Source: a virus. Taken from it: a stretch of 47,355 nucleotides of DNA. The position numbers were made by a program, and so were the translations under genes. Positions 1-44,124 of the stretch are shown here, in pieces (positions within the stretch are counted from its first letter, which is position 1; the number at the start of each line of letters is the position of its first letter). Below the pieces are notes generated by a model that was not told where the DNA came from, ran no database searches, and saw only the letters and a list, made by a program, of their open reading frames with translations. The stretch covers positions 1-47,355 of IMG/VR virus record IMGVR_UViG_3300035665_000067. One strand, given 5' to 3'.

Positions 1-53
1 GTACTGAGGATGACACTGTACGTAAGATTCGTCGTACCTTCCGAGGTAAGTAG
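1..53 (+). CDS. C-terminal end of a holin-like small membrane protein (partial, 5' end outside window)
   Basis: Reading from base 3, the first 16 codons give TEDDTVRKIRRTFRGK and then a TAG at 51-53. This matches in place and style the C-terminus of the complete 65-residue gene at 43922-44119, which ends in TEDDKIQRIKDTFK and also sits directly before an endolysin. The fragment is therefore the tail of copy A of that gene. Its membrane segment lies outside the window, so function rests only on the homologous copy. Confidence 0.7.
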   Translation, partial: TEDDTVRKIRRTFRGK

Positions 54-55
54 TA

Positions 56-1024
56 ATGGTATTGCTGCAAGTTAAGCAGTACTACCCCCAGACAGATAGT
101 GCAACAGGTCACGGAGATCGGATGTGCTTTAGCTCAACATGTGCTATGGCAATCAAGTATCTCCGTCCTGATGCGCTTAAGGGTAGTAACGCAGATGATG
201 ATTACCTCCGTACTGTATTGAAGTACGGCGATACAACTGAATATACATCACACATCAAGGCTTGTCAGCAGTACGGTATCTTAGCTACCTTCTACCAAAA
301 GGGCACTAAACAAGCTTTGATCAATGAACTAAAGGCTGGTTATCCAGTTGCTACTGGCATCCTCCATAAAGGTCCTGCTACTGCTCCTAGGGGTGGTGGG
401 CATTGGATGTTATTGATTGGTGATGAGGGTGAACGTGGTGTCTTCCATGACCCATACGGTGAGATGGATAACGTTAACGGAGGCTATGTCACTATTGGTA
501 GTGGTGGTAGTAGTGTCCGTTATTCTTGGAAGAACTGGCTTAAGCGTTGGGAAGTGGAGGGTAGTGGTACTGGATGGTTCATGACCTTCCGTCCTACCTC
601 TACACCGCAACCTGTAGCTACTGTTGCTAACACTTGGGAGGGAGTGATCACTGCTGCCTCTAAGGCTGGTGCTAAGTTCCCACAAGTAGTAGCAGCACAG
701 TGGGCATTAGAGAGTGGATGGGGTAAGCATACCTCTGGTACACATAACTACTTTGGACTTAAAGGATCTGGTACTGACCATGAGACTAAAGAGTTTATTG
801 ATGGTAAATGGATCACGATTACTGCTGGGTTCATTAACTTCCCGGATCTTCAGTCGTGTGTCTCCTATTTGACACAACGTTGGTACAAGGACTACAAGAC
901 ATATAAAGGTGTGAATAGAGCAACCTCTGTAGAGGAGTGTTGCAAACTTTTAGTCAAGGAGGGGTACGCCACTGATCCCAACTATAGCACTAAACTGATT
1001 AACATCATCAACCAAAAGAAATGA
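56..1024 (+). CDS. Endolysin copy A: C39-like cysteine peptidase plus GH73 glucosaminidase, 322 aa
   Basis: Bifunctional peptidoglycan hydrolase for host lysis. Residues 1-180 resemble a C39/papain-like peptidase: Cys24 in MCFSSTCAM, His116 in GGGHWMLLIGD and Asp132 in FHDPYGE form a plausible triad. A short linker near 180-192 leads to a GH73/FlgJ-type N-acetylglucosaminidase domain (about 193-322) with the catalytic-type Glu in WALESGWGKHTSG (Glu219). There is no signal peptide, so a holin is needed for access to the wall. It follows the holin-like gene by a few bases and overlaps the next gene by 4 bases, as in a lysis operon. T7 instead uses an amidase, so this is an exchanged lysis module. 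A second, diverged copy of the same length lies at 44125-45093. The same glucosaminidase fold also appears in the virion protein at 33939-36932. Confidence 0.88.
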   Translation: MVLLQVKQYYPQTDSATGHGDRMCFSSTCAMAIKYLRPDALKGSNADDDYLRTVLKYGDTTEYTSHIKACQQYGILATFYQKGTKQALINELKAGYPVATGILHKGPATAPRGGGHWMLLIGDEGERGVFHDPYGEMDNVNGGYVTIGSGGSSVRYSWKNWLKRWEVEGSGTGWFMTFRPTSTPQPVATVANTWEGVITAASKAGAKFPQVVAAQWALESGWGKHTSGTHNYFGLKGSGTDHETKEFIDGKWITITAGFINFPDLQSCVSYLTQRWYKDYKTYKGVNRATSVEECCKLLVKEGYATDPNYSTKLINIINQKK

Positions 1025-1266
1025 TTGAAGCGGTTATCACAGGTGTTGCTTCTCTGGTGATTGGGATAGGTGGCGGTATTGCAGCTATTAATAGTAAATC
1101 GAACACACGTATGGATCAATTAGACAAACGTATTGATTCCATTGAGTTGAGGTTTGCTGAGAAGTACGTCCCTCGCCAAGAGCTAGCTAACGCCTTACAA
1201 AAGATGGAGGATCACATGATCAGAATCGAGAACAAGCTGGACCAGATTGTATTGAGAAATGGCTAA
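1021..1266 (+). CDS. Small TM plus coiled-coil protein copy A, spanin/holin-accessory candidate, 81 aa
   Basis: One N-terminal hydrophobic segment (about residues 3-24, Gly/Ile/Ala rich) is followed by a charged coiled-coil-like helix (about 28-78) ending RIENKLDQIVLRNG. This topology fits a single-pass inner-membrane protein such as an Rz-like i-spanin or an XhlA-type accessory. Its position directly after the endolysin and before small terminase matches the T7 neighbourhood of the Rz-like gene 18.5. The start overlaps the endolysin stop by 4 bases and the 3' end overlaps the next gene by 8 bases. The diverged copy is at 45490-45735; its C-terminal half is nearly identical in DNA. The spanin role is inference. 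Confidence 0.7.
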   Translation: MIEAVITGVASLVIGIGGGIAAINSKSNTRMDQLDKRIDSIELRFAEKYVPRQELANALQKMEDHMIRIENKLDQIVLRNG

Positions 1267-1648
1267 GAAAACCTGCATTAAATGCGGGATAGAAAAAGAG
1301 TTGGACAAATTTGAGAGTAAACGTAACACTTGTAAGGAATGCAGAAACCAGCAAGCTCGTGATTCTCAAAGAGCAAGAACTTGGAAGTACCGAACTCAGT
1401 ACGGTATTACTTTAAAGGATTACGATTTACTCTACGAACAGCAGAATGGCCTTTGCTCTATTTGTGGTACAGATACCCCTGGAGGTCCCGGAGAACGTTT
1501 TAGAGTAGATCATAACCATGAAACGAATGAAGTTCGTGGGTTACTTTGCAATAACTGCAACCGTGGACTTGGTTACTTAAAAGATAGCCCAACAATACTA
1601 TCTAAAGCCTTGACTTATTTACTTACTAACGGACACTATGGCACCTAA
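1259..1648 (+). CDS. Recombination endonuclease VII-type HNH nuclease, 129 aa
   Basis: The N-terminus has a zinc-binding pair of CxxC knuckles (CIKCGIEKE, then CKECRNQ). The C-terminal half carries CSICGT, then VDHNHETNEVRGLLCNNCN with GLGYLKDSP, the signature of the endonuclease VII (His-Me/HNH) family of phage recombination and homing nucleases. It sits between the 81-residue gene and small terminase, replacing the direct 8-base overlap those two genes have in copy B (45728). The insertion keeps overlaps on both sides: 8 bases with the upstream gene and 11 with TerS. This suggests a precisely inserted free-standing mobile endonuclease rather than a core resolvase, since an endonuclease I-type resolvase is present at 14106-14459. 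Confidence 0.85.
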   Translation: MAKKTCIKCGIEKELDKFESKRNTCKECRNQQARDSQRARTWKYRTQYGITLKDYDLLYEQQNGLCSICGTDTPGGPGERFRVDHNHETNEVRGLLCNNCNRGLGYLKDSPTILSKALTYLLTNGHYGT

Positions 1649-1892
1649 ACAGAAAGCTACGGAAGATGCTTTTAACGAATTACATAACCTAGTTACCGAA
1701 GAGTTTCTTCGCCGCATTAAATCTGGTGAGGCTAGTACTGCAGATTTAAAAGCCTGCACAGATTGGCTATCTAAAAATGACATTTCGGGTTGCGCGTATC
1801 AGGGTAACCCACTTGATAAACTTGCCACCATTATGCCCAAGGTAGATCCTGAACTTATCCAAAAGAGGTTGTATGGCAAGTCGCACATCTAA
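1638..1892 (+). CDS. terS: Terminase small subunit copy A (T7 gp18-like), 84 aa
   Basis: Small acidic/helical protein of the size of T7 gp18, beginning MAPKQKATEDAFNELHNLVT and ending PKVDPELIQKRLYG. It is expected to regulate DNA recognition and concatemer cutting together with the large terminase at 4819-6552. Copy B at 45728-45979 aligns over its full length. The gene overlaps the preceding HNH gene by 11 bases and the following gene by 20. Unlike copy B it has been separated from the 81-residue gene by the inserted nuclease. Identification rests on size, position and resemblance to cyanopodovirus small terminases. Confidence 0.75.
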   Translation: MAPKQKATEDAFNELHNLVTEEFLRRIKSGEASTADLKACTDWLSKNDISGCAYQGNPLDKLATIMPKVDPELIQKRLYGKSHI

Positions 1893-2127
1893 ATACTATA
1901 AGGCTAATCCTGAGGCAAAGGCTAAGCGCCTCAAGCAGCAAGCTTCCTATAATAAAACTAAAGAGGGTCTTAAGATCCGTACTAATGCTAATAAACTGAA
2001 CCGTAAGCTTGGTACTTATGGTAATGGTGATGGTATGGATGCTTCCCATACAGGTCCCAATAAAGGCAAATTAGAATCCCCTAAAGCAAACCGTACACGC
2101 CCACGTAAGGGTAAGAAGTATGGCTGA
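1873..2127 (+). CDS. Basic conserved protein copy A, function unknown, 84 aa
   Basis: Very basic protein rich in Lys, Asn and Gly, with a helical N-terminal half (about 1-45) and a disordered-looking C-terminus ending RPRKGKKYG. I do not recognise a catalytic motif. It lies between small terminase and an HNH gene, overlapping TerS by 20 bases, so a nucleic-acid-binding or packaging-related role is possible but not shown. The C-terminal half is nearly identical at DNA level to copy B (45960-46214), while the N-terminal half is diverged. This is the left shoulder of the identity peak around the HNH gene. Confidence 0.75.
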   Translation: MASRTSKYYKANPEAKAKRLKQQASYNKTKEGLKIRTNANKLNRKLGTYGNGDGMDASHTGPNKGKLESPKANRTRPRKGKKYG

Positions 2128-2147
2128 TCTACTCAAAATCCAGTAAT

Positions 2148-2474
2148 GTGACACCGCTATTTCCTAGTCCTGATCACTACCTCCACAACCTAATAACGAT
2201 GACAAGCTCTGAAGCAAAAAGGCTACACCGTCGTGCAATTAAGGAATACTTTAATTGTCAATGCGTATACTGCGGAGAAACTTATGAACTACATGAACTT
2301 ACACTTGATCACGTTCGCCCTAAGTGTCTTGGTGGCGAAGACCTTACTTCAAATTTGGTACCCAGCTGTAGGAAATGCAATCAGGCTAAAGGAAGTAGCA
2401 ATTGGCTACAATGGATGAGAGAGACATTTGGTATTACCAATAGGGAAACATTAATTCTATCACACATTCGTTAA
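2148..2474 (+). CDS. Free-standing HNH endonuclease copy A, 108 aa (or 91 aa from ATG 2199)
   Basis: Compact HNH nuclease with a CVYCGE zinc knuckle, the core LTLDHVRPKCLGGED, then NLVPSCRKCNQAKG and NWLQWM. These are the conserved His-Asn-His and second CxxC elements of homing-type HNH enzymes. The frame opens at GTG 2148; the in-frame ATG at 2199 (MTSSEAKRL) is equally plausible and neither has a clear ribosome site. The 5' extension is conserved almost base for base in copy B. A free-standing HNH gene near terminase genes is typical of selfish homing endonucleases, and some phage HNH proteins also aid packaging. Confidence 0.85.
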   Translation: MTPLFPSPDHYLHNLITMTSSEAKRLHRRAIKEYFNCQCVYCGETYELHELTLDHVRPKCLGGEDLTSNLVPSCRKCNQAKGSSNWLQWMRETFGITNRETLILSHIR

Positions 2475-2476
2475 TT

Positions 2477-2869
2477 ATGGACAAAAAGAAAACACTCAAG
2501 CAGATGCGTGACGAGATCAAGCAAATGGTCGAAGCATCCCAAAAACGCCAGGGTCGTGATACTAAGTCAGAGATGGGCTCTAAAGCTATGAAAGCTAAAG
2601 ATACATCTAAGAACTTTCAAGATGGTGGTTATAAAGCAAAGACAAAGGTAGATGGGTCTAAATACCAAGGCGCTCCTATCTCCAAAGCTAACCTTCAAGA
2701 ATACAAAGAAGCTCAATCACCTAAGGAAAAGGCTAAGCCCCGTCAACGTCGTGGTGCAGGTCGTGAGGACATGATGAGTAATCAGCGTCAACGTGAGATT
2801 ATGGAACGTGAGGAGCGTAAGCGTAAGAGTAACATGGACAAAGGCGGGTCCAATGTAGTTGGGAGTTAA
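2477..2869 (+). CDS. Highly charged, probably disordered protein copy A, 130 aa
   Basis: The N-terminal 20 residues form a likely helix (MDKKKTLKQMRDEIKQMVEA). The rest is Lys/Ser/Gln/Arg-rich low-complexity sequence with no recognisable domain, ending MDKGGSNVVGS. It starts 2 bases after the HNH stop and is followed 4 bases later by the next gene. The copy at 46564-46947 keeps the N-terminal helix and the SNVVGS end but is strongly diverged in the middle. The family is unknown to me; a packaged or scaffold-like disordered protein would fit, but that is a guess. Confidence 0.65.
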   Translation: MDKKKTLKQMRDEIKQMVEASQKRQGRDTKSEMGSKAMKAKDTSKNFQDGGYKAKTKVDGSKYQGAPISKANLQEYKEAQSPKEKAKPRQRRGAGREDMMSNQRQREIMEREERKRKSNMDKGGSNVVGS

Positions 2870-4762: not shown

Positions 4763-4806
4763 GGTACCTAGGAGCCTCTACAAGGGGCCTCTAGGTGCCT
4801 TTACGT
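4763..4806 (+). terminator. Probable rho-independent terminator before the large terminase
   Basis: An inverted repeat pairs GGTACCTAGGAGCC (4763-4776) with GGCCTCTAGGTGCC (4786-4799), allowing two imperfect positions. A short T-rich tail follows. It sits between the 99-residue gene and the terminase start at 4819, so it may attenuate transcription into terminase. The tail is short (TTTACG), so termination may be partial. Confidence 0.6.
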
Positions 4807-4818
4807 ATATTTTACCAT

Positions 4819-6552
4819 ATGGACACTTTAACCGCCCTTAGAGACGATTTTAAGCTCTTTCTTCAGGCACTGTGGGGACAACTAGATCTACCATCACCAA
4901 CACGTGCTCAGTACGCTATTGCTGACTATCTACAGCATGGACCTAAGCGACTACAGATCCAAGCCTTCCGAGGAGTCGGTAAATCGTGGATCACGGGAGC
5001 TTTTGTGTTGTGGACACTTTTTAACAACGCTGAGAAGAAGATCATGATCATCTCTGCCTCTAAGGAGCGTGCTGATAACATGTCTATCTTCCTGCAGAAG
5101 CTGATCATCGAGACACCATGGCTATCACATTTGAGACCAAAGAGTGATGAAGCTAGGTGGAGTCGTATCTCCTTTGACGTTAACTGTAGCCCTCACCAAG
5201 CACCATCCGTTAAGTCGGTGGGTATTACAGGTCAGCTAACTGGTTCACGTGCTGACCTTATGATTCTTGATGACGTGGAGGTACCAGGTAACTCTATGAC
5301 TGAAATGATGAGGGAAAAACTACTGCAGCTATGTACTGAGGCTGAGTCCATCCTAACTCCCAAAAAGGATAGTCGTATCATGTACCTTGGTACTCCTCAG
5401 ACTACCTTCACCATTTACCGTAAGCTAGCTGAGCGTAACTATCGTCCTTTTGTGTGGCCATCACGCTACCCACGTAAAGATAAACTATCACAGTATGAGA
5501 ACCTCCTAGCACCTCAGATCCTAGAGGATATCGAGATGGGGGTAGAGGAATGGACTCCTACAGATCCTGATCGTTTCACTAGTGAAGACCTAGTAGAACG
5601 TGAAGCAGCTATGGGTCGTAGTAACTTCATGCTACAGTTTCAATTAGACACAGCTTTGAGTGATGCAGAAAAGTTCCCACTTAAATTCAGTGATCTTGTC
5701 GTTACCTCTGTTAACCCCACACAGGCACCTGATGCTGTGGTGTGGTGTAGTGATCCACGTAATTGTCTCAAGGACCTCCCTACCGTAGGACTACCAGGTG
5801 ATTACTTCTATTCACCGATGCAGTTACAAGGGGAGTGGGGACCATACACAGAAACAATCTGCTCAGTAGACCCCTCAGGACGAGGCACAGACGAAACAGC
5901 AGCTACATACATCTCACAAAAGAATGGCTTTCTCTACGTTCACGAAGTACGAGCGTATCGCGACGGTTATAGCGATAACACACTTCTTGACATCCTTCGT
6001 GGGTGTAAGCGTTATAACGTTACCAAACTTCTTATCGAAACAAACTTCGGAGATGGTATCGTCGCAGAACTCTTTAAGAAACACCTGCAACAAACAAAAC
6101 AAGCAATAGACGTTGAGGAAGTACGGGCTAATGTTCGTAAGGAGGATCGTATTATCGATGCCCTCGAACCCGTTATGAACCAACACCGACTCATCGTTGA
6201 TAGAAGTGTGGTAGAATGGGACTATGCCTCTAACAAAGATGCAGCACCCGAAGAGAGGCTATTGTATATGCTGTTCTACCAAATGTCTAGGATGTGTCGT
6301 GAGAAAGGTGCAGTTAAACACGACGACAGATTAGACTCACTAGCTCAAGGTGTCAAGTACTTCACAGATGCTATGGGTATCTCAGCCCATGAAGCCGTTA
6401 AACTACGTAAACAGGAGGACTGGAACGACATCTTAGAGACATTCATAGATGACCCAGTAGCCGCTACTAACCACTTAGTTTTGGGTTTTAATATCGACCA
6501 AAGAAGGCAGGCTAGAGGTAAGACAAAAAGTTCAGTCCCCACCTGGGTTTAG
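4819..6552 (+). CDS. terL: Terminase large subunit (T7 gp19-like ATPase/nuclease), 577 aa
   Basis: Packaging motor ATPase and nuclease that cuts concatemers and pumps DNA into proheads. A Walker A motif FRGVGKSW (Lys55), the following SASKERADNMS segment and a Walker B ILDDVE (Asp151-Asp152) are close to T7 gp19. The C-terminal RNase H-like nuclease shows SVDPSGRGTDE (Asp351), NFGDGIV and HDDRLDSLAQG. Length is close to the 586 residues of T7 gp19. I place the start at ATG 4819 (MDTLTALRDDF); an upstream GTG at 4795 lies in the terminator hairpin and is unlikely. The gene is followed by structured non-coding DNA. Confidence 0.95.
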   Translation: MDTLTALRDDFKLFLQALWGQLDLPSPTRAQYAIADYLQHGPKRLQIQAFRGVGKSWITGAFVLWTLFNNAEKKIMIISASKERADNMSIFLQKLIIETPWLSHLRPKSDEARWSRISFDVNCSPHQAPSVKSVGITGQLTGSRADLMILDDVEVPGNSMTEMMREKLLQLCTEAESILTPKKDSRIMYLGTPQTTFTIYRKLAERNYRPFVWPSRYPRKDKLSQYENLLAPQILEDIEMGVEEWTPTDPDRFTSEDLVEREAAMGRSNFMLQFQLDTALSDAEKFPLKFSDLVVTSVNPTQAPDAVVWCSDPRNCLKDLPTVGLPGDYFYSPMQLQGEWGPYTETICSVDPSGRGTDETAATYISQKNGFLYVHEVRAYRDGYSDNTLLDILRGCKRYNVTKLLIETNFGDGIVAELFKKHLQQTKQAIDVEEVRANVRKEDRIIDALEPVMNQHRLIVDRSVVEWDYASNKDAAPEERLLYMLFYQMSRMCREKGAVKHDDRLDSLAQGVKYFTDAMGISAHEAVKLRKQEDWNDILETFIDDPVAATNHLVLGFNIDQRRQARGKTKSSVPTWV

Positions 6553-6556
6553 ACCA

Positions 6557-6592
6557 GATCCCACCCGTTAAGCGGGAGCTGAAGGGTGGATC
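6557..6592 (+). other. Stable stem-loop just after the large terminase gene
   Basis: GATCCCACCC (6557-6566) pairs with GGGTGGATC (6584-6592) with one bulged C. An alternative inner hairpin CCCGTTAAGCGGG is also possible. There is no T-run after it. It could be an RNA processing or 3' end-protection structure, or part of a double hairpin with the terminator at 6607. Confidence 0.5.
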
Positions 6593-6606
6593 AGACCCCG
6601 TGAATG

Positions 6607-6648
6607 GAGGAAGACATGTCTTTATCAAGACACATCTTCCTCTTTATT
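6607..6648 (+). terminator. Rho-independent terminator after the large terminase
   Basis: GAGGAAGACATGTCTT (from 6607) pairs with AAGACACATCTTCCTC (to 6642), 14 of 16 positions, with a small loop and a following TTTATT. It lies about 55 bases after terL and separates late packaging genes from thyX. The rest of the gap to 6784 holds a small TGTCC/GGACA hairpin at 6651-6668 and nothing else I can support. Confidence 0.7.
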
Positions 6649-6783
6649 AATGTCCCTGGGAATGGACATTCTGTAAGTACTAACTCCAAAGACACAAACC
6701 TCCACTAACTAATACTGAATCTTGGAGTACTGATTCTCCCCATCCTTCTGAATCCTGTCACTACCTATTCTACTGTATACACT

Positions 6784-6966
6784 ATGAGTAGAACATATCG
6801 TAAAGAACCTACTTACATGTTTAGACCTGTACGTACTTATAATGAGTTACGTCAGCAATTCTTTGATGATGAGGGTTATACAGTATCAACTAGACAGCGT
6901 TATATACCTACACTATACGACGACATCCACATCTCTGCCTACCAACAACTCGACCACCACCGCTAA
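6784..6966 (+). CDS. Small protein upstream of thyX, unknown function, 60 aa
   Basis: ATG start; Tyr-, Arg- and Asp-rich soluble protein beginning MSRTYRKEPTYMF. The stop codon abuts thyX with a one-base overlap, indicating translational coupling. I do not recognise a family. A coding reading is supported by the tight junction and absence of alternatives, but evidence is modest. Confidence 0.5.
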   Translation: MSRTYRKEPTYMFRPVRTYNELRQQFFDDEGYTVSTRQRYIPTLYDDIHISAYQQLDHHR

Positions 6967-7610
6967 TGATCCATTCCACCAAACTGGTTCACATCACCCC
7001 TAACGCTGAAGAACTTATTAGTTATATGGCTAGGGTATCTAATCCCGCTAATCAAAACAACACTGAGACCAGTGCTAAACTAATTAAGTATCTTATTGAC
7101 CATCACCACTGGTCACCATTTGAGATGGTTAATATGTGTGTAGAGATTGAGACTACTAGGAGTATAGCTGCACAAATCTTGAGGCATAGGTCGTTTAGCT
7201 TTCAAGAGTTTAGTCAACGATATGCACAAGTAGAACTAAGGCCTGAGATCCCTGAGCTTCGTAGACAAGATACAAAAAACCGACAGAATAGTATCAATGA
7301 CCTAGAGGAAGATAAGAAGAAGTTCTTTGATTCTAAGATTGGTCACCTCTATAGTGAATGCTATCGTGTCTATCAAGATCTACTGGATGCTGGGGTAGCT
7401 AAGGAGTGTGCTAGAGAGGTGCTACCAATGGCTGCACCTACTAAACTGTACATGAACGGTACTATTCGATCCTGGTTGCACTACTGTGACCTACGTACAG
7501 CTCATGGTACACAGAAAGAACACGCACAGATAGCAGCACAAGTGCAAGACATTCTCTATCAACACCTCCCTAATGTATGTGAGGCAATGTGGAACAAAGA
7601 CTTAAACTAA
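6966..7610 (+). CDS. thyX: FAD-dependent thymidylate synthase ThyX, 214 aa
   Basis: Converts dUMP to dTMP using methylene-tetrahydrofolate and reduced flavin, supplying thymidine for phage DNA. The ThyX signature RHRxxSxxxxSxRY is present as RHRSFSFQEFSQRY at residues 73-86. The N-terminal AEELISYMARVSNP and the C-terminal segment around RSWLHYCDLRTAH also fit the family, and the length is normal. It lies after the packaging genes and next to the probable genome-end region, outside the replication block holding nrdA/nrdB. thyX is a common auxiliary metabolic gene in marine cyanophages. Confidence 0.95.
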   Translation: MIHSTKLVHITPNAEELISYMARVSNPANQNNTETSAKLIKYLIDHHHWSPFEMVNMCVEIETTRSIAAQILRHRSFSFQEFSQRYAQVELRPEIPELRRQDTKNRQNSINDLEEDKKKFFDSKIGHLYSECYRVYQDLLDAGVAKECAREVLPMAAPTKLYMNGTIRSWLHYCDLRTAHGTQKEHAQIAAQVQDILYQHLPNVCEAMWNKDLN

Positions 7611-7906
7611 ACGAATTCAAAGCACTTTATAAAAGTTGGAAGACAAGTGTACCATGGTTGGATCACCTCCTACTTGGTTTACTTGTTTGGTTAGAGGAAA
7701 AGCTCATTAATGCACGTGTTAAGATTGAGATAGATGAAGCGATTAAGGAATGGGAAACGCTTCAACCACCTATGCCAGATATGGTGACTCCTGTCTACAC
7801 AGAAACACCTTCAGCGACGTCTATTGCTCGCTCAGAGCAAGCTACAAGGCTCCCTGAGATGCGTCTAACTGCTCCTTGGTATAAGGACACTGCGGGTACT
7901 GATTAA
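7589..7906 (+). CDS. Small protein with one hydrophobic helix, unknown function, 105 aa
   Basis: Starts inside the 3' end of thyX (22-base overlap), so translation is probably coupled. Residues about 20-36 (VPWLDHLLLGLLVWLEE) form a hydrophobic or amphipathic helix; a charged helix follows and then a Pro/Thr-rich tail. A membrane-associated role is possible. It is the last gene before the 820-base non-coding region. I do not recognise a family. Confidence 0.55.
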   Translation: MEQRLKLNEFKALYKSWKTSVPWLDHLLLGLLVWLEEKLINARVKIEIDEAIKEWETLQPPMPDMVTPVYTETPSATSIARSEQATRLPEMRLTAPWYKDTAGTD

Positions 7907-7944
7907 GGCTCCTATAAGGGGCATTGTGAGGGGGTCTTAAATTT

Positions 7945-7972
7945 TTGACATAAATTTAACAAGCCTTATATC
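7945..7972 (+). promoter_or_regulatory. Sigma70-like promoter, early
   Basis: TTGACA at 7945-7950, a 16-base spacer and TATATC at 7967-7972, reading toward the early genes. The -35 is a perfect consensus. Host RNA polymerase would be expected to use it, as with T7 A1-A3. Confidence 0.6.
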
Positions 7973-8008
7973 GCCAGTGGGCCTCGTATTTCCCCCCAGT
8001 GCCCCCCT

Positions 8009-8036
8009 CTTGCGATCAAGGACTCCTACCGTATAT
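8009..8036 (+). promoter_or_regulatory. Second sigma70-like promoter, early
   Basis: TTGCGA at 8009-8014, a 16-base spacer and TATATC at 8031-8036. It has the same -10 word and spacing as the promoter 64 bases upstream, suggesting tandem early promoters. The -35 is weaker, matching consensus at four positions. Confidence 0.45.
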
Positions 8037-8197
8037 CAATAGACAGCACTGTATGTAGTGTACTGCTAGCCAGTGTGTAACTAATTGGTAGCGGTGGAGT
8101 ACTGGGTGCAAGGGGTTAGTAACTGGTGGGTATGGCGGTATAACGCTATATGTAGTGGTGTTAGGATATGGTGACACTAGGGTATATATCAAGTTAT

Positions 8198-8227
8198 CTG
8201 TCTGCGAAGCCTATAACAGTCAGACAG
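8198..8227 (+). repeat. Perfect 7-base inverted repeat in the non-coding region
   Basis: CTGTCTG (8198-8204) and CAGACAG (8221-8227) enclose 16 bases. No T-run follows, so it is not an obvious terminator. It could be a processing or packaging-related structure. Confidence 0.45.
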
Positions 8228-8346
8228 CGCAGCTATAACGCTCTCAGCCACCCCTACAAGCCGCTATAAGGCCCCTCTAACAGTTAATAGGTATACTGAG
8301 CCCATCAACCAGTAGAGAGGCATTGTAGGGCCATATACATGCATCG

Positions 8347-8357
8347 TTCACAATCAC
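8347..8357 (+). promoter_or_regulatory. 11-base repeated motif TTCACAATCAC, copy 1
   Basis: Perfect copy of the 11-mer, followed by G, in non-coding DNA about 370 bases before the first early gene. It is the only copy clearly outside genes and may be a phage-polymerase promoter or other protein-binding site. Confidence 0.55.
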
Positions 8358-8571
8358 GCTATTTATCACGTAGGACCATTACCACATACGCCATGATACC
8401 GAATCCCTAATTGACCCTCTCAACACGCCTAATTGGTAGCCAGGGGGCCTATTTAGGGCTAGACAGGGCGGCCTGGATGGGCTATGGTAGGTTCATCGGT
8501 GGGGGAGGCGAGACCGTCGCTCTTCACCAGTGGCTGCTAAGCCGCACCCAGCACCTAGACAATTGCATATG

Positions 8572-8654
8572 TAGGTCGTCACAAGACGGAACTAGCGGAG
8601 CGAGCGATCCCGCGAGTAGTTATAGGTTGCAACCCGACCTGACTACACGACCTA
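8572..8654 (+). repeat. Inverted repeat with nested palindrome upstream of the first early gene
   Basis: TAGGTCGT (8572-8579) and ACGACCTA (8647-8654) are perfect complements. Between them lies the perfect palindrome GGTTGCAACC (8625-8634) and a GC-rich stretch. The outer span (83 bases) resembles tRNA length, but arms do not fold as a canonical tRNA. Confidence 0.45.
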
Positions 8655-8726
8655 GTTATCATGTACTATGCCGAGCCACAGGCTTTGTTTGTTCATGGCA
8701 ACTGTCCACCATTAACGGAGTTAATT

Positions 8727-8879
8727 ATGTCCCTTACTCTTGACCGTAAAGTAGCTACTGGTCTCTTCAGTAAAGCTGCTACTGGTAATGATCTCTTGAC
8801 TGTACTTGAGATGATTACTGACACCTTCACCAAACCTGCTGTCAACACTGTTCCTACACTTGAGGAGATTGAGTTCTAA
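8727..8879 (+). CDS. First early protein, cyanopodovirus-type, 50 aa
   Basis: I start at ATG 8727 (MSLTLDRKVATGLFSKAATG) because a GGAG ribosome site lies 7 bases upstream; an ATG at 8661 would add 22 poorly supported residues. It is a small protein with a helical middle and acidic end (LEEIEF). Similar short proteins beginning with a VATGLFS-like stretch occur at the left end of T7-like cyanophages, with no function known to me. Its stop overlaps the next start (TAATG), the first link in a coupled chain of small genes. Confidence 0.75.
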   Translation: MSLTLDRKVATGLFSKAATGNDLLTVLEMITDTFTKPAVNTVPTLEEIEF

Positions 8880-8953
8880 TGCTAGCCTTAGTTATCCTAA
8901 TTATTGGTACTGTTTACGTTATTAAGGAGATCAATGACAACGTATTCCTTTGA
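8879..8953 (+). CDS. Putative 24-residue membrane micropeptide
   Basis: An ATG overlaps the preceding stop as TAATG and opens a 24-codon frame, MLALVILIIGTVYVIKEIND and four more residues. This is a single hydrophobic helix with a charged end. The following gene starts inside it at 8934, with its ribosome site AAGGAG in this ORF. The architecture fits a real small membrane peptide, but it could merely be the spacer carrying that ribosome site. Confidence 0.4.
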   Translation: MLALVILIIGTVYVIKEINDNVFL

Positions 8954-9152
8954 TCAATTGCGTGATGCTGTGCAGGAATGCACCAGCTATGATCTTGTTC
9001 AACGCTTTAGTGATGATGAGGATGAGTACGCTTTGATTGATCCATTCGGTGATCAAGATGGTGAGCCCTTCTATGATCTTAGTGATGTAGAAGACTTCAT
9101 CCGCAATAACGATCAAGTTGATCAGTACCTCTACGAACTCACCAACAAATGA
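8934..9152 (+). CDS. Acidic early protein, unknown function, 72 aa
   Basis: The start ATG 8934 (MTTYSFDQLRDAVQE) follows a clear AAGGAG site at 8924-8929; upstream in-frame starts would add unrelated residues. It is very acidic in the middle (FSDDEDEYALIDPFGD). Small acidic early phage proteins often mimic DNA or bind host enzymes, but no family is recognised here. It overlaps the next gene by 4 bases. Confidence 0.75.
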   Translation: MTTYSFDQLRDAVQECTSYDLVQRFSDDEDEYALIDPFGDQDGEPFYDLSDVEDFIRNNDQVDQYLYELTNK

Positions 9153-9298
9153 CTTATACCATCTCACGTATGGATGATGAGGGCAACTGGGTTGCTCTTG
9201 AGTCATTCGAGACATATAGTGAGGCTGAGATGAACCACGATTGGTATAGTGACAAGTATCCCTATGCCTTAGTTGATATCGTCAGCACACTAGAGTAA
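9149..9298 (+). CDS. Small early protein, unknown function, 49 aa
   Basis: ATG 9149 overlaps the preceding stop (ATGA) and the frame runs to TAA at 9296. The product begins MTYTISRMDDEGNWVALESF, is acidic and aromatic, and looks like a compact soluble fold. No motif is recognised. Tight coupling on the 5' side supports it as real. Confidence 0.65.
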   Translation: MTYTISRMDDEGNWVALESFETYSEAEMNHDWYSDKYPYALVDIVSTLE

Positions 9299-9313
9299 CA
9301 CTTGTCCCTTTCA

Positions 9314-9324
9314 TTCACAATCAC
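9314..9324 (+). promoter_or_regulatory. 11-base repeated motif, copy 2
   Basis: Perfect TTCACAATCAC followed by A, with 13 bases between the motif and the ATG at 9338 of the ArdA-like gene. Confidence 0.55.
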
Positions 9325-9337
9325 ACGCCAATTACCT

Positions 9338-9913
9338 ATGACCACTGCTGTTGTTCCATTTATGCTCAAGGGTGATGCACTTGTTTCATTCGTCGATGAG
9401 AGAATGGAATTAGTTAACCGGGGTGAGCAGACTCGCACTGAGATGATCAAGGACGCAGGCTATGTCTATGACAACGGTAAGGCTATGTATGTAGACTTCT
9501 ACACTGAGCTACTCAATGCACGAGGTATTGTACCTACCACTGATACAGACAAAGCAGATCAAGAGTATGATGACCTGACCAATGAGGAGAAGGATCTCTA
9601 TGATAAGATCACTGACATGCTAGGCAGTAAGTGGACTCATGAGGAGACGATTGAGTTCATGGATGAGTTGTATGAGAATGGCATCAACACTGCTAGTGAG
9701 TTTGAGGATGCCTATGAGTACACACATGATAGCTACTCCAGCTATGCTGAGAAAGAGTTCAGTGAGTACTTTTGTATCGAAGTGATGGGAGCTGAGATCC
9801 CAGAGTGTGTCCTCAGTGCTGTAGATTGGCAAGCTGTGTGGGATCACAACCTACGCTATGACTTCTGCAGCATTGAGACTGTTAACGGTACCTTCTTCTT
9901 TCGTAACTTCTGA
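9338..9913 (+). CDS. ArdA-like antirestriction protein, 191 aa
   Basis: Acidic protein whose C-terminal half fits the ArdA pattern: an EFEDAYEYTHDSYSSYAEK segment, IPECVLSAVDWQAVWDHNL, then a short end NGTFFFRNF matching the usual IPE-x-DYEAFGRDL and final Phe-Arg of ArdA. ArdA proteins mimic B-form DNA and block type I restriction enzymes, so it would protect entering phage DNA. I chose ATG 9338 (MTTAVVPFMLKG); a TTG at 9302 in frame is possible but has no ribosome site, and the repeated 11-mer lies in that stretch. The N-terminal domain (about 1-80) is not assigned. Confidence 0.65.
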   Translation: MTTAVVPFMLKGDALVSFVDERMELVNRGEQTRTEMIKDAGYVYDNGKAMYVDFYTELLNARGIVPTTDTDKADQEYDDLTNEEKDLYDKITDMLGSKWTHEETIEFMDELYENGINTASEFEDAYEYTHDSYSSYAEKEFSEYFCIEVMGAEIPECVLSAVDWQAVWDHNLRYDFCSIETVNGTFFFRNF

Positions 9914-10068
9914 TGACTGAAACCAACATCATCCTTGCTGTGATTGGTATGGTTGGGTTGTTTGCTACGGCTACGATTTACCAACGTGCTAATCGCATCA
10001 CTAGCCTCTACTACACTAACAAGATCAACCGCGATCTTATCAATCTCAACAACCGAGAGTTTAACTGA
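9913..10068 (+). CDS. Small single-pass membrane protein, 51 aa
   Basis: ATG overlaps the preceding stop (TGATG). Residues about 5-24 are a hydrophobic helix (NIILAVIGMVGLFATATIY), followed by a basic, Asn-rich tail that would lie in the cytoplasm. No family is recognised. The stop overlaps the next start by one base, continuing the coupled chain. Confidence 0.65.
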   Translation: MTETNIILAVIGMVGLFATATIYQRANRITSLYYTNKINRDLINLNNREFN

Positions 10069-10259
10069 TGTTGCTTCACAATCACGACACCGCTGTTAAG
10101 GTTGATGTCTACCCTGATGAGTTCAAACCTATCATGAAGGCAGTCAAGTATGCTTTAGTGTGTGATGATTCACGCAAGGTTCTTAATGGTGATGAGTGGG
10201 CTGCTCTTAATGGGTGGCTCGATTACTTCTCTGATGTTGCACTTAACGAAGCTGTATGA
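10068..10259 (+). CDS. Small early protein, unknown function, 63 aa
   Basis: Starts at an ATG overlapping the upstream stop and ends overlapping the next ATG by 4 bases. Product MLLHNHDTAVKVDVYPDEFK and onward is a soluble, mildly acidic protein with a WAALNGWLDYFSDV segment. No family recognised. Codons 3-6 contain the repeated 11-base motif, so this stretch may be under DNA-level as well as protein-level constraint. Confidence 0.7.
   Translation: MLLHNHDTAVKVDVYPDEFKPIMKAVKYALVCDDSRKVLNGDEWAALNGWLDYFSDVALNEAV
10075..10085 (+). promoter_or_regulatory. 11-base repeated motif, copy 3
   Basis: Perfect TTCACAATCAC followed by G, inside codons 3-6 of the 63-residue early gene and in a different codon phase from the copy at 11165. 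Confidence 0.55.
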
Positions 10260-10408
10260 AGGTAAACATTCAACGATTGCTTGAAACGTGTATCGATGAT
10301 GGTATTCGAGATGCTATCAACTCATGTAGGGAGGAGGATCACTTAGCCTCTAAGCTGAGCGAGTACATTTGGGTACAACTTGACTACTACTTTGACTTTG
10401 AGGAATAA
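10256..10408 (+). CDS. Small acidic early protein, unknown function, 50 aa
   Basis: ATG within the ATGA junction of the preceding gene; ends at TAA 10406-10408, which overlaps the next ATG. Product begins MKVNIQRLLETCIDDGIRDA and ends DYYFDFEE, a helical acidic protein. No family recognised; support comes from coupling and dense packing. Confidence 0.65.
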   Translation: MKVNIQRLLETCIDDGIRDAINSCREEDHLASKLSEYIWVQLDYYFDFEE

Positions 10409-10578
10409 TGGCAAAAGCACTAACTGATGAGCAACGCAAGATGCGCCTTGAGCTAGTCGATTTGGCTGGCCAGGGTGTACGTACTCAAGCCACTGCTGGG
10501 TACTATGATGCTGAACAAGTTGAGTACATGACTCAACAACTTGAGCGTGTTGCTAAGTTCCTTTGCGTTAAGAACTAA
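10408..10578 (+). CDS. Small helical early protein, unknown function, 56 aa
   Basis: TAATG junction at both ends. Product begins MAKALTDEQRKMRLELVDLA and is predicted mainly helical and soluble. No family recognised. Continuous coupling with neighbours supports expression as part of the early operon. Confidence 0.65.
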   Translation: MAKALTDEQRKMRLELVDLAGQGVRTQATAGYYDAEQVEYMTQQLERVAKFLCVKN

Positions 10579-10742
10579 TGTACACTACATACAAAGGTCT
10601 CCGTGAATACGAAGTCACACTCACAAGCGGTGTTTGGTATCTCCTCTCACAGAGTACTGAACAAGCGGCTTGGACTGCACTAGAGCTATCTAAAGAACGT
10701 AACGACAAGCTATTAAATGTCAAAGAAACGGAAGAATGGTAA
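10578..10742 (+). CDS. Small early protein, unknown function, 54 aa
   Basis: TAATG junction with the previous gene. Product MYTTYKGLREYEVTLTSGVW and onward has a beta-rich start and a C-terminal helix of the WTALELSKERND type. The C-terminal codons contain a GGAAG that can serve as ribosome site for the next gene at 10744. Function unknown. Confidence 0.65.
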   Translation: MYTTYKGLREYEVTLTSGVWYLLSQSTEQAAWTALELSKERNDKLLNVKETEEW

Positions 10743-10743
10743 C

Positions 10744-11055
10744 ATGGCTAAGCGAAAGGATTTCCCAAACAACTGGCAAGAATACAAAGATGCTGATGAT
10801 GACATGTTCCATGCTCATACCTATGAGGAGATCATGTCTTGGAAGGTTGCAGGTTGGGAACTCCCTAGCTCTGTATGCTGTATCATCCGCACCTCTGACC
10901 TAAACACTGGTAAGGTTAAGGAGTATGTCTACCAAAAGCGTAGTGCTGCTCAGGCTAAGGTTAACGCACTGATTGATACACCTGACATTGAGTTCACGGT
11001 TGTTGATCACGAGTCCATCCATTTCCTCACCCCTACTGATTTTGATTATGACTAA
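10744..11055 (+). CDS. Conserved-type early protein, unknown function, 103 aa
   Basis: I choose ATG 10744 (MAKRKDFPNNWQEYKDADDD), which follows a GGAAG site by about 9 bases; an ATG at 10717 would overlap the previous gene by 26 bases. The protein has an alpha/beta-like composition with an SVCCIIRTSDLNTGKVKE strand pair and an acidic end. No catalytic motif is recognised. It overlaps the next gene by 8 bases. Confidence 0.75.
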   Translation: MAKRKDFPNNWQEYKDADDDMFHAHTYEEIMSWKVAGWELPSSVCCIIRTSDLNTGKVKEYVYQKRSAAQAKVNALIDTPDIEFTVVDHESIHFLTPTDFDYD

Positions 11056-11185
11056 CGCTACCTTTTCTCGTCGCCTTCAACAACTCATTCAGCAAGTAGA
11101 GAATCATCCGCATCGTGATGAGATCATCAAGCTTGCACAAGAACAACTCATTGACGATAACAATTTCACAATCACGGAGAATTGA
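11048..11185 (+). CDS. Small helical protein directly upstream of RNA polymerase, 45 aa
   Basis: ATG 11048 lies in the 3' end of the previous gene; the product begins MTNATFSRRLQQLIQQVENH and ends NNFTITEN. It is helical and charged. Its last codons contain the 11-base motif and its stop lies 3 bases before the RNA polymerase TTG start. A small protein at this position is familiar from T7-like cyanophages, with unknown role. Confidence 0.7.
   Translation: MTNATFSRRLQQLIQQVENHPHRDEIIKLAQEQLIDDNNFTITEN
11165..11175 (+). promoter_or_regulatory. 11-base repeated motif, copy 4
   Basis: Perfect TTCACAATCAC followed by G, with 13 bases between the motif and the TTG start (11189) of the RNA polymerase gene, the same gap as copy 2. 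Confidence 0.55.
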
Positions 11186-11188
11186 TTA

Positions 11189-13528
11189 TTGGCTACACCT
11201 GCACAGATCGATGAGCAAGTAGCTCTAGAGCGAGAGCAAATCAAGCAAGGACTCCAGCGACTTAGAGATAACACCCGTAAGCTGCAGGAACAAAGCTATG
11301 CTAGTGCTACGGTCTATGGTGTGGCGTCTATTGACGCACTACTCCCTACTCTTGTTAGATACATAGAGGACAGCAGTGAGTACCGCCTCAAGCGTGGATC
11401 AGGTCATCAGTTTGACATTATCAAGAACTATGTCTCTCAACTAGAACCACTAGCATCTGCTTCCATTGCACTGAAGATTACCTTTGACAAGGTGTTCTCT
11501 ACCACTAAGGGTAGCGATCAACTGCAGTCAGTATGCGATGCTATCGGCCATGCTATCGAGTCTGAGTGTCAAATGCGGCACTATGAGAAGACAGCACCTG
11601 GGTTACTTGCTGTACTCAAAAAGAACTACTTCCACAAGTCCATCGGTACACAACAGAAACTAACTGTCATCCAAACATTGATGAACAGATGTGAGGTACC
11701 TGAGTGGGAGATTTGGGGTAGAGCTAACCGTATTAAGCTAGGTGCATGGTTGCTTGATTGCATAATGCAAACTAGTGGTTGGTTCGTAAAAGATTTGCGT
11801 CGCTTAGGTAAAGTAACTGTAACATTTGTTGCACCTACACCTGAGTTCCTCAAGATCCGTGATAAAGTCATGAGTGATGCTGAACTATTTGCACCACTTG
11901 CATGGCCAATGCTTATCGAACCAAACGATTGGACTAACGATCGTCCTGGTGGTTACCTACTCAATGAGGTAATGCGAGGCTACTCCTTGGTTCGTAGGGG
12001 AGACTCCACCCGTCTACAGGAGGAGATCCCTCTTGCCTTTCTGAACAAGATTCAGAAGGTAGCTTACCAGATCAATCCCTTTATTTATGGGGTTGCTGAG
12101 GAGCTGACTAGAATGGAACGCTCTGTTGGTAAGTTCCTACCAGTTGTTCATCACCCTCTGCCTGCTAAACCTGCTGACATTGAAACCAATTACGATAGCC
12201 GTAAGGATTATCGGAGAAGAGCAGCAGAGGTGTTGAACTTACAAGCACAAGAACCCAAGAAGTCGTGTAGAACTCGCATGACTATGGAAGCAGCTAAGAG
12301 GTTCAAGGATAGAGATAGATTCTTTTGTCCATGGTCATTTGACTATAGAGGAAGAGCTTATCCTATCCCTGCTTTTTTAACTCCACAAGACACTGACTTT
12401 GGTAAATCATTACTGAGGTTTGCTGATGGGTCTTATATGACACCAGAAGCTGAGTCGTGGTTAGCATTTCAAGTAGCAACTTGTTATGGTTTAGATAAAG
12501 CAACCATGTCTGAGCGACTAGCTTGGGTGGATGAGAACATCACACTCATCAGTCGTATTGCTACTGACCCAATCGGTAATCTACCTGAATGGGAAGCAGC
12601 AGAAGAACCATGGCAATTCTTAGCAGCATGTGAAGAGTATTATCATTGTGTGATCACAGCTGATAGACAATTCACAGCACTGTTTGTTGCTGTAGATGCA
12701 ACCTGTAGTGGTCTTCAGATCTTGGCTGGACTTGCACGAGATAAGTCAACTGCAAGACTGGTAAACGTCCTACCTGGTGACAAGCCTCAGGATGCCTACA
12801 AGGTAGTTGCTGAAGCTGCTATGTCATCAGTACCTGAACGCTTACGTCCATTCCTGGATAGGAAGAAGACCAAGCGATGTGTTATGACTATCCCTTACAA
12901 TGCTAAGCCTTACTCCAACAGGGGTTACATCAAAGAGGCTTTCTTGGAGGACGGGATAGAGCTAGATAAAGAAGAGCTTACTCAAGTCGTTAAAGCTATC
13001 CGTTCAGCTATGGATGTGGTCGTACCAGGTCCAATGGCTGTCATGAAATGGATTGAGACTGAGGTAGCAGCTGCTGTCAAGCGTGGTGTACGATACCTTG
13101 AATGGAGGACTCCATCTGGGTTCCTTGTGCATCAGAAGCTCAACAAGAAGAAGTTCCAGTCTATGGAGCTGCAGCTGTTGGGTCGTTGTAAGATGAAGGT
13201 GGCAGTGGGGGAGACTGATGAGGTCGATCTCAACCACCACAAGAATGCAACTGCACCTAACTTAATCCACTCACTTGATGCTTCACTGCTACATTTGAGT
13301 GCTCTACGCTTTGATGCCCCTATTGCTCTTATTCACGATTCTGTGCTTTGTCGTGCAACGGATATGTCTACCCTATCCACCATTGTACGAGAAACCTACA
13401 TGCACTTGTTCGCAGAGCATGACTACCTACGAGACTTCGCCAAGCAAATTGGTGCAGAGTCTGAACCACCGATCATTGGTGATCTAGAACCAGAGACCGT
13501 GATCGAATCCACCTACTTCTTTTGTTAA
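11189..13528 (+). CDS. rnap: T7-type single-subunit DNA-directed RNA polymerase, 779 aa
   Basis: Transcribes phage middle and late genes from phage-specific promoters. Catalytic elements are clear: motif A VAVDATCSGLQI with Asp503, motif B KTKRCVMTIPYNAKPYSN with Lys562 and Tyr570 (same 8-residue spacing as Lys631 and Tyr639 of T7), and motif C LIHDSVL with His716-Asp717. It is about 100 residues shorter than the 883-residue T7 enzyme, as is usual for cyanopodoviruses, mainly in the N-terminal promoter/termination region. The start is TTG 11189, supported by a GGAG site 9 bases upstream. The 11-mer lies just before that site, so the polymerase might be autoregulated. Confidence 0.97.
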   Translation: MATPAQIDEQVALEREQIKQGLQRLRDNTRKLQEQSYASATVYGVASIDALLPTLVRYIEDSSEYRLKRGSGHQFDIIKNYVSQLEPLASASIALKITFDKVFSTTKGSDQLQSVCDAIGHAIESECQMRHYEKTAPGLLAVLKKNYFHKSIGTQQKLTVIQTLMNRCEVPEWEIWGRANRIKLGAWLLDCIMQTSGWFVKDLRRLGKVTVTFVAPTPEFLKIRDKVMSDAELFAPLAWPMLIEPNDWTNDRPGGYLLNEVMRGYSLVRRGDSTRLQEEIPLAFLNKIQKVAYQINPFIYGVAEELTRMERSVGKFLPVVHHPLPAKPADIETNYDSRKDYRRRAAEVLNLQAQEPKKSCRTRMTMEAAKRFKDRDRFFCPWSFDYRGRAYPIPAFLTPQDTDFGKSLLRFADGSYMTPEAESWLAFQVATCYGLDKATMSERLAWVDENITLISRIATDPIGNLPEWEAAEEPWQFLAACEEYYHCVITADRQFTALFVAVDATCSGLQILAGLARDKSTARLVNVLPGDKPQDAYKVVAEAAMSSVPERLRPFLDRKKTKRCVMTIPYNAKPYSNRGYIKEAFLEDGIELDKEELTQVVKAIRSAMDVVVPGPMAVMKWIETEVAAAVKRGVRYLEWRTPSGFLVHQKLNKKKFQSMELQLLGRCKMKVAVGETDEVDLNHHKNATAPNLIHSLDASLLHLSALRFDAPIALIHDSVLCRATDMSTLSTIVRETYMHLFAEHDYLRDFAKQIGAESEPPIIGDLEPETVIESTYFFC

Positions 13529-14106
13529 TGTCACAACCCATCCACGTTACTCAACAGCCTGTTGTCCTTGAAGGTTATCAAGCTGTACTGAAACCATCTA
13601 AGTTTGGTTATTCACTGTCTGCACTCCTGGACTCTAAGCTCATCGAAGCATTGGAGGAGGATCGCAAAGAAACACTCAAGTGGGCAGAGTCCAAACTGAA
13701 GAACCCCAAGCGTAGTGTCCTCAAGCCTGAACCATGGGAAGAGGTAGCCGAAGGTTCCTATAAGACTAAGTTCTCCTGGAATGAAGAGAACCGCCCTCCT
13801 GTTGTGGACAGTGAGGGTACCCCGATTACTAATCGTGATCTGCCTGTCTACAGTGGCAGCAAGGTTAAGCTTGCCTTCCGCCAAAAGCCCTACATCCTCA
13901 AGGATGGTGTCACCTATGGCACTAGCTTGAAGCTTGTTGGTGTCCAGGTAGTCGAGCTTGGTGGTGCTGCTGGTGTTGATCGTGGTGACCTTGGTGAAAC
14001 TGAGGTAGCTGCATTGTTCGGTCAAACTACTGGCTTTAAGGCTGGATCGGTGCCTGAAACCACTAATGATGTGGTTGAGGATGTCGTCGAGGATGATGAC
14101 TTCTGA
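13528..14106 (+). CDS. ssb: Single-stranded DNA-binding protein, T7 gp2.5-like, 192 aa
   Basis: Coats ssDNA and coordinates polymerase and primase/helicase at the fork. The position after RNA polymerase and before endonuclease I equals T7 gene 2.5. The core contains FSWNEENRPPVVDSEG and VYSGSKVKLAFRQKPYILKD, matching the OB-fold region of the family. The protein ends in a very acidic tail closing with Phe (VVEDDDF), the hallmark protein-interaction tail. The ATG at 13528 overlaps the polymerase stop (TAATG) and is preferred over a TTG 6 bases upstream. Confidence 0.9.
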   Translation: MSQPIHVTQQPVVLEGYQAVLKPSKFGYSLSALLDSKLIEALEEDRKETLKWAESKLKNPKRSVLKPEPWEEVAEGSYKTKFSWNEENRPPVVDSEGTPITNRDLPVYSGSKVKLAFRQKPYILKDGVTYGTSLKLVGVQVVELGGAAGVDRGDLGETEVAALFGQTTGFKAGSVPETTNDVVEDVVEDDDF

Positions 14107-14459
14107 TGGCCTTTCGCTCAGGACTTGAGGAGAAGGTCGCTGATCTTCTCACTAACCTGGGTGTCAAATACGAATACGAATCAACCAAGGTACCTTACGT
14201 ACTGCAATGCAACTACACGCCAGACTTCCTCCTACCTAATGGTATCTACCTAGAGACCAAGGGTCAACTGACTGAGGAGGATAGGCGTAAGATGAAAGCA
14301 GTCAAGGCAGCACATCCTGACCTTGATATTCGTTTCGTATTTCAATCACCCCACAACAAGATCTATAAAGGATCGAAGACCACCTACGCTAAGTGGTGTG
14401 AGAAGCATGGCTTCCAATACTGTTCGTTCCACTCGATTCCCATTTCATGGCTGACATAA
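14106..14459 (+). CDS. Endonuclease I / Holliday junction resolvase, T7 gp3-like, 117 aa
   Basis: Resolves branched DNA and helps degrade host DNA. The catalytic pattern of T7 endonuclease I is present: a Glu in FRSGLEEKVAD, then YTPDF (Asp40) and YLETKG (Glu50, Lys52), with the same 10- and 2-residue spacing as Asp55, Glu65 and Lys67 of T7. Length is slightly shorter than the 149 residues of T7 gp3. It overlaps SSB by one base and the next gene by 13 bases. Confidence 0.93.
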   Translation: MAFRSGLEEKVADLLTNLGVKYEYESTKVPYVLQCNYTPDFLLPNGIYLETKGQLTEEDRRKMKAVKAAHPDLDIRFVFQSPHNKIYKGSKTTYAKWCEKHGFQYCSFHSIPISWLT

Positions 14460-44119: not shown

Positions 44120-44124
44120 TCGTC

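Follow-up and report, generated by a model that had tools for sequence, protein, structure and literature searches.

Genome context and the gene-free stretch

The window (the whole stretch of DNA analysed, 47,355 bp) is a virus contig from a T7-like cyanopodovirus of cyanobacteria. Its closest match in the phage collection was Synechococcus phage DSL-LC07 (OQ999402; 88% over 99% of positions 6500–14400), followed by S-CBP1. DSL-LC07 is metagenome-assembled and deposited as circular, and its ends and RNAs are unannotated in the stretch examined. The gene order was terL, thyX, a 105-aa ORF, a gene-free stretch, small early genes, RNA polymerase (RNAP) and single-stranded DNA-binding protein (Table 1). 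No PHROGs family was found for five of the 20 window proteins scanned.

The gene-free stretch (7907–8726) is bounded by the stop codon of the 105-aa ORF (7906) and the ATG of the first early gene (8727). The record of S-CBP1 begins six bases upstream of the ATG of its own homologue of this early gene. A sequence-only reading of the window had singled out the stretch as its only long gap; it is the longest gene-free gap of the contig. The ORF list includes a 110-aa ORF with a TTG start (8411–8743) that overlaps it. Even with this ORF counted, the 504 nt from 7907 to 8410 are the longest gap on the plus strand (ORFs of at least 50 aa), the next one having 358 nt. Each of the six frames had 12–20 stops, the longest stop-to-stop frame reaching 105 codons, which makes a coding function unlikely; the stretch is very probably non-coding. 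A repeat finder recognized three short direct families in it, and no inverted pair at its settings. A tRNA scan and a search against Rfam 15 at gathering thresholds added nothing for the window.

The two ends of the window (47–2543 and 44113–46630) carried the same gene block, from endolysin to HNH genes, with 77–87% identity and gaps between the matching pieces. Here the assembly likely went once around a circular map and ran on into another strain; a true duplication may be the alternative. Another contig, G009, similarly had the 105-aa gene near both ends, in diverged copies.

Table 1 Features of the window discussed in the text.
Feature	Position	Strand	Basis and remarks
Terminase large subunit (terL)	4795–6552	+	phrog_38, E 1.9e-117
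thyX and 105-aa ORF, last genes before the predicted right end	6966–7906	+	ORFs and PHROGs
Left-boundary signal (TTTTGACA plus 18 bases, ending in TTA at the predicted cut)	7943–7968	+	Alignment with the 26 nt preceding the right repeat copy of P-SSP7, Syn5, S-SBP1 and S-TIP37
Predicted direct terminal repeat, 227 bp	7969–8195		Boundary code; single copy in the assembly, expected at both virion ends
Right-boundary signal ATCTGT	8196–8201	+	Directly right of the predicted mature right end
Three of the four CTATAA words	8211–8269	+	Right of the predicted repeat
Probable early host-type promoter, TAGACA-17-TATGGT	8460–8488	+	Promoter scan and conservation
RNA1, three-way-junction leader RNA	8564–8659	+	47-sequence alignment A1
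RNA1 stem P1	8573–8579/8647–8653	+	
RNA1 stem Pa	8595–8598/8610–8613	+	
RNA1 stem P2	8616–8620/8642–8646	+	
RNA1 stem P3	8624–8629/8635–8640	+	
RNA2, H-type pseudoknot	8670–8699	+	S1 8670–8672/8681–8683 (short here); S2 8675–8678/8696–8699
First early gene, 50 aa	8727–8879	+	ORF, GGAG upstream; nested in a 72-aa ORF (8661–8879) of the ORF tool
RNAP	11189–13528		

Boundary words in cyanophages with terminal repeats

Terminal repeats are already known from T7-like cyanophages: those of P-SSP7, 206 bp long and direct, were established experimentally, by sequencing of the ends and Southern blotting (PMC3350473). In the deposited records we found exact terminal repeats for P-SSP7 (206 bp), Syn5 (237 bp), S-TIP37 (150 bp), S-SBP1 (180 bp) and T7 (160 bp), those of S-TIP37 and S-SBP1 being taken from the records as deposited. 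The S-TIP28 and S-CBP1 records had no exact terminal repeat, and several cyanopodovirus records have been submitted as circular molecules or lack terminal repeats. The four repeat-bearing cyanophages shared a left word, TTTTG[GA]CA followed by 18 more bases, ahead of the right repeat copy, and a right word, A[TC]CTGT, after the left copy. The latter was also present in T7 and T3.

A left-boundary model, trained only on these four cyanophages and evaluated by leaving one out, ranked the true site first genome-wide and on both strands in all four, narrowly in S-TIP37 (16.7 vs 15.6). The cyanophage-trained model did not recover the boundary of T7 itself. Among 19 cyanophage records outside the training set, the top left signal was paired with ATCTGT in 16. 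The exceptions were S-CBP3, a record of unordered pieces with no ATCTGT; S-CBP4, whose record ends too early; and S-CBP1, which has three candidate right sites, with ATCTGT present at 183 and another right word scoring higher. The left scores of S-SRP01 (14.0) and SS120-1 (12.2) were no better than second-best sites elsewhere. For the IMG/VR scan, and for the RNA1-distance and RNA2-anchoring checks described below, the model was trained on sites of named phages, DSL-LC07 and S-CBP1 among them. A left signal scoring at least 15 was found in 96 of 193 IMG/VR loci, a count that includes repeat fetches of some contigs and in which many loci lacking the signal had entered via distant thyX matches. 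Of these 96, 79 had ATCTGT at a distance of 117–302 nt. An earlier description of this boundary code was not found in the openly licensed literature searched, chiefly at abstract level. A code readable from sequence would allow true ends and gene order to be set from metagenomes, and could be tested cheaply.

The predicted terminal repeat in the window

With the predicted cut written as a slash, the window carries TTTTGACATAAATTTAACAAGCCTTA/TATCGCC at 7943–7975 and CAAGTT/ATCTGTCTG at 8190–8204, from which a 227-bp repeat was predicted (Table 1). Position 7969 ranked first of all window positions on both strands in the left-boundary model (24.7 vs 15.0 for the next one). With a pair model that included T7, the window scored 26.4, compared with a best score of 22.4 among 25 simulated 47-kb sequences. 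In DSL-LC07 the predicted repeat had the same length, 227 nt, and the two phages agreed over the 30 nt surrounding the right boundary. Most likely, judging from these shared words, the gene-free stretch is the meeting point of the two ends of a linear DNA with a repeat of ~227 bases.

The sequence-only reading had also placed probable genome ends here, and this is supported by the shared boundary words, the first rank of 7969 and a relative whose contig starts at this base (see below). As it had noted, the stretch lies between packaging and early genes, where T7-like ends occur. Its reservation about the place of thyX does not count against this: in three phages with terminal repeats in their records (Syn5, S-TIP37 and S-SBP1), thyX is likewise found between terL and the right end. 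The span that it suggested for checking, 6550–8730, was too wide for a predicted repeat at 7969–8195.

The same arrangement is known from named phages. P-SSP7, also a T7-like cyanophage, has the boundary words and the same succession of last gene, short gap, repeat, long non-coding leader and first gene. It differs in carrying talC where the window has thyX at the right end and in having no RNA1, and blastn found no DNA similarity to the stretch. The repeats of T7, T3 and gh-1 measure 160, 231 and 216 bp. In these phages, as in the window, terminase, right end, repeat, host promoters and early genes follow one another in this order, and there are related words, CA-N-AAAAATCTGA preceding the repeat and ATCTGT at its end or close to it. 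In gh-1, in contrast, ATCTGT starts three bases after the repeat.

Two smaller motifs of the earlier reading were present as described. CTATAA occurred four times in the stretch (7912, 8211, 8233 and 8264) against 0.39 expected, a count that none of 2000 first-order Markov sequences reached; the three words right of the repeat are perhaps akin to the short repeats near T7 ends. The CTGTCTG stem was found at 8198–8204, pairing with CAGACAG at 8221–8227, and was not kept in DSL-LC07.

Contig ends at the predicted boundaries

Metagenomic relatives gave a second view of the ends. The first base of contig G001 (46,028 bp; RNAP 96% identical; also listed as locus L137) coincides exactly with the one predicted for the repeat. 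On the right side of this contig a left signal is followed by a second copy, identical in 264 of 268 bases, which runs up to the contig end. Contig G002 begins at repeat base 20, and its other end lies in its second copy; the overlap there amounts to exactly 99 identical bases, which is what an assembler would produce. A third contig, L006, is identical to window positions 7901–8202 and stops 7 nt beyond the predicted right end.

Among 62 contigs ending within 6 kb upstream of the RNAP gene, left ends showed no broad pile-up, with one at repeat base 1 and one at base 20. Right ends were enriched over the whole stretch: 19 of 47 were within 700 nt of the repeat start, eight of them at 100–300 nt (loci L013 and L018 were left out as isolate genomes). 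There was a second peak at 500–600 nt, so assembly breaks at variable DNA may contribute. The contig ends are supportive of genome ends here, and not decisive, because only 2 of the 62 left ends fell in the repeat. The window contig itself is continuous through the repeat, as would be the case for either a collapsed repeat or a permuted genome.

Promoters

Two hexamer pairs with 16-nt spacing are in the sequence: TTGACA (7945–7950) with TATATC (7967–7972), and TTGCGA (8010–8015) with TATATC (8032–8037). They had been read as tandem promoters. The hexamers are there and the promoter reading found no support, the first pair belonging to the left-boundary signal and the second lying inside the predicted repeat. 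An early promoter at 7945 is unlikely, since the predicted genome end between 7968 and 7969 splits its second hexamer. After such a cut, the mature left end would lack TTGACA, which would be found only at the right end of the mature DNA, pointing outwards. A promoter scan gave two sites, a number not above chance (1.2 expected). Neither the 7945 nor the 8010 site was listed, because the scan demands a second hexamer ending in T.

The probable early promoter is instead the one at 8460–8488. It has conserved −35 and −10 hexamers within the 16–18-nt spacing by which a host-type (sigma-70) promoter was recognized. The pattern T[TA]GACA-16..18-TAT[GT][GT]T was found upstream of RNA1 in 41 of 53 distinct sequences and TTGACA-17-TATAGT in two more, so that a promoter pattern was kept in 43 of the 53 relatives and absent from ten. 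The block at 8456–8510 was identical to DSL-LC07 in 55 of 55 positions, compared with only 26 of 53 at 8511–8563. A leftward promoter-like site (8163–8192, minus strand) inside the predicted repeat was within chance numbers; its position resembles that of A0, a leftward promoter annotated in the repeat of T3.

RNA1, a three-way junction

The 83-base inverted repeat described earlier, with a nested GGTTGCAACC, is present at 8572–8654. It is unlikely to be part of the genome ends: it is the closing stem of a covarying three-way junction, which we call RNA1, located right of the repeat. The region folded better than shuffled sequences, only moderately so (z −2.16; four of 200 shuffles were as good).

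A pattern built from the RNA1 core recovered 66 stretches in viral contigs, of which 47 distinct copies were aligned (A1), and none in the cellular genome collection when searched as the exact pattern. RNAalifold, unaided, returned the same fold plus two extra pairs inside the Pa loop. In A1, 99.0% of the cells were paired and 11 of 22 pairs had double changes. A total of 136 cells were changed on both sides, against 33 in shuffles and at most 11 when the alignment was slid. None of 500 shuffles was as high for cells paired, double-change cells or covariation score. Two further measures were weak or uninformative, as they were matched by six (pairs with double changes) and 423 (further pair types) of the 500 shuffles. 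In 41 of 45 distinct sequences one pair is U-G, which on the opposite strand would read A-C; this supports the plus strand for RNA1. The core was nearly invariant and the stems short, and three members had an extra hairpin between P2 and P3.

RNA1 appears to be restricted to one clade: its model hit six of 85 sources, all of them close relatives, and the copy in DSL-LC07 was identical in 96 of 96 positions. In 88 of 94 locus entries, which include repeat fetches of some contigs, RNA1 was located 429–832 nt right of the left-boundary signal. The remaining six entries, from four contigs, had no left signal in the covered stretch, which starts within 810 nt of RNA1; in one of these contigs (L182) the signal was present in another stretch.

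Searching Rfam with window positions 7900–8750 up to E 5 returned only SCARNA21 (minus strand, 8223–8323, E 3.7), below gathering and outside both RNAs. Loci L283, L248, L247 and L218 gave three sub-gathering matches, none over RNA1. The Glutamine-II riboswitch (RF01704) is also an RNA found in cyanophages, and by eye its core, as we take it, resembles GACGGAACTAG in RNA1. We rejected this identity, as the RF01704 covariance model had no match up to E 5 in window 7900–8750, L283, L248 or L247. The family itself was detected at gathering just downstream of psbA in P-SSP7 (20522–20575) and S-TIP37 (20335–20388), and not in the window.

RNA2, a pseudoknot

Directly downstream of RNA1 there is an H-type pseudoknot, RNA2. 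It consists of a hairpin with the loop GA-N4-CA, whose N4 pairs with an N4 located behind an A/T-rich spacer and CA. RNA2 is widespread in cyanopodoviruses: with second-stem complementarity required, it was found in 41 of 104 repeat-anchored regions, chosen by left signal or known ends and by length, compared with 3 of 2080 simulated regions. The window copy, with a first stem of only 3 bp, was below the threshold of that scan and was found in a separate search. The two sides of the second stem varied together, as GCCA/TGGC, CCCA/TGGG (S-SBP1, AP013538 and L040), GCAA/TTGC, GCCT/AGGC and GTCA/TGAC (S-RIP2).

In an alignment of 53 sequences (A2), all nine pairs had double changes and 96.6% of the cells were paired; the second-stem counts are biased, because the sequences were selected for S2 complementarity, plus one of five loop words. 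When elements were anchored without the S2 requirement, 45 of 61 were complementary, one of them (L003, minus strand, 22461) outside the leader. Among the 16 non-complementary elements, two (L230 with T-T, L282 with G-U) had a left signal of at least 15 within 1500 nt upstream and are leader elements differing at one second-stem position. The other 14 had no boundary signal upstream (score at most 9.9) and were taken as chance. By eye, the first genes after RNA2 look unrelated between phages.

Scanning S-TIP37, S-SBP1 and P-SSP7 at gathering yielded only Glutamine-II, elsewhere in the genome. No Rfam 15 family was found for RNA1 or RNA2 in the copies scanned, and no description in the openly licensed literature searched, chiefly at abstract level. 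Both RNAs appear to be new, and any function for them is inferred.

RNA2 was seen twice in a row in L141 (2884–2963), L131 (9515-10a, minus strand; 1138–1350) and L230 (4299–4438). Hairpins resembling a tRNA T-arm (e.g., CAGGG-TTCGAGT-CCCTG) followed RNA2 in some marine relatives and were present in the P-SSP7 leader, with possible acceptor-like stems by eye. Their approximate positions were 610–630 in S-SBP1 (L120), 6665–6685 in L051, 625–645 and 1022–1042 in P-SSP7 (L004) and 620–670 in S-TIP37 (L119). ARAGORN called no tRNA at these four loci. A strict T-arm scan found such hairpins in 2 of 75 anchored IMG/VR regions, in P-SSP7 (two) and in S-SBP1, and not in Syn5 or S-TIP37, the latter having a variant loop.

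Interpretation and alternatives

We consider it very probable (about 0.88), from sequence comparison, that the stretch is the end junction of a linear T7-type genome: a 227-bp repeat, followed by a leader with a promoter and two structured RNAs. Headful packaging would instead give a circularly permuted genome without fixed ends, leaving the stretch no more than a control region for the early genes. In its favour, the contig shows no break here, and the sequences at its two ends overlap in diverged form (77–87% identity), as expected of a circular map. Nevertheless, we regard this as very improbable: TerL matches phrog_38, which we take to be the T7-like terminase family, and the terminal repeats of relatives are flanked by the same boundary words. 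Moreover, P-SSP7 was once thought to be permuted on the same assembly grounds and then shown to be linear (PMC3350473). The ends could also be here with a repeat longer or shorter than 7969–8195, for example if a different ATCTGT-like word marked its end. Among relatives the predicted repeats measure 117–302 nt, with 366 nt in G001, and both the L006 end and the three candidate right sites of S-CBP1 would fit such a shift. We find it unlikely, given the agreement with DSL-LC07 in repeat length and around the right boundary.

The leader allows other readings as well. The long inverted repeat might work as DNA, as a cruciform, replication origin or packaging hairpin, since it is near the ends and a DNA hairpin would show paired changes too. 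The U-G pair in 41 of 45 sequences, which fits a plus-strand RNA and would be a mismatch in DNA, the location downstream of a promoter kept in most relatives, and the conserved unpaired core, typical of RNA, make this quite unlikely. By analogy, RNA1 could be an RNase III-type processing site in place of R0.3, which precedes the first gene of T3, with a similar site in gh-1. T3 and gh-1 have annotated RNase III stem-loops in the same place, before the first early gene (T3 stem-loop 822–875, gene at 901; gh-1 putative site 845–893, gene at 1058). Neither RNA1 nor RNA2 was found in T7. RNase III sites are generally simple long duplexes with little sequence constraint, and RNA1 by comparison has short stems around a nearly invariant core; a processing site is conceivable here and doubtful.

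In the end-junction reading, replication and recombination would produce concatemers with one repeat per junction. The terminase would generate the right end by cutting before ATCTGT (right boundary) and the left end by cutting after ...GCCTTA (left boundary). The repeat would be duplicated in the process, leaving a copy at both ends of each virion, as in T7. The left end would enter the cell first, and the host polymerase would start at 8460–8488 soon after DNA entry. The early transcript would then consist of a variable segment, RNA1, RNA2 and the first gene.

Because RNA2 precedes seemingly unrelated first genes in different phages, the two RNAs would act generally on the early transcript, through processing, stability, antitermination or translation, and not as one-gene switches; a gene-specific switch role for RNA2 is unlikely. 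Processing or stability is the plainer guess, from the RNase III sites annotated at a similar place in T3 and gh-1. A more far-reaching idea, which we hold only tentatively and think more probably wrong than right, is that the left end of cyanopodoviruses is a leader module of two undescribed RNAs that act on the host machinery independently of the first gene, for example as a put-like antiterminator or decoy RNA. The pseudoknot would then be common from Prochlorococcus to freshwater Synechococcus phages and the three-way junction clade-specific, both being among the first phage products. The put-like RNA is an antiterminator, and one acting here would let the host RNA polymerase read through the early operon. 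Both RNAs would be at the end entering the cell first, the place from which a T7-like phage takes control of its host, and the hosts are abundant photosynthetic bacteria.

Promoters for the phage RNA polymerase were sought as repeated 11-mers, and only TTCACAATCAC reached at least four occurrences in the window. It was present five times (8347, 9314, 10075, 11165 and 14895), several of them shortly before early genes, and is possibly a translation or transcription signal.
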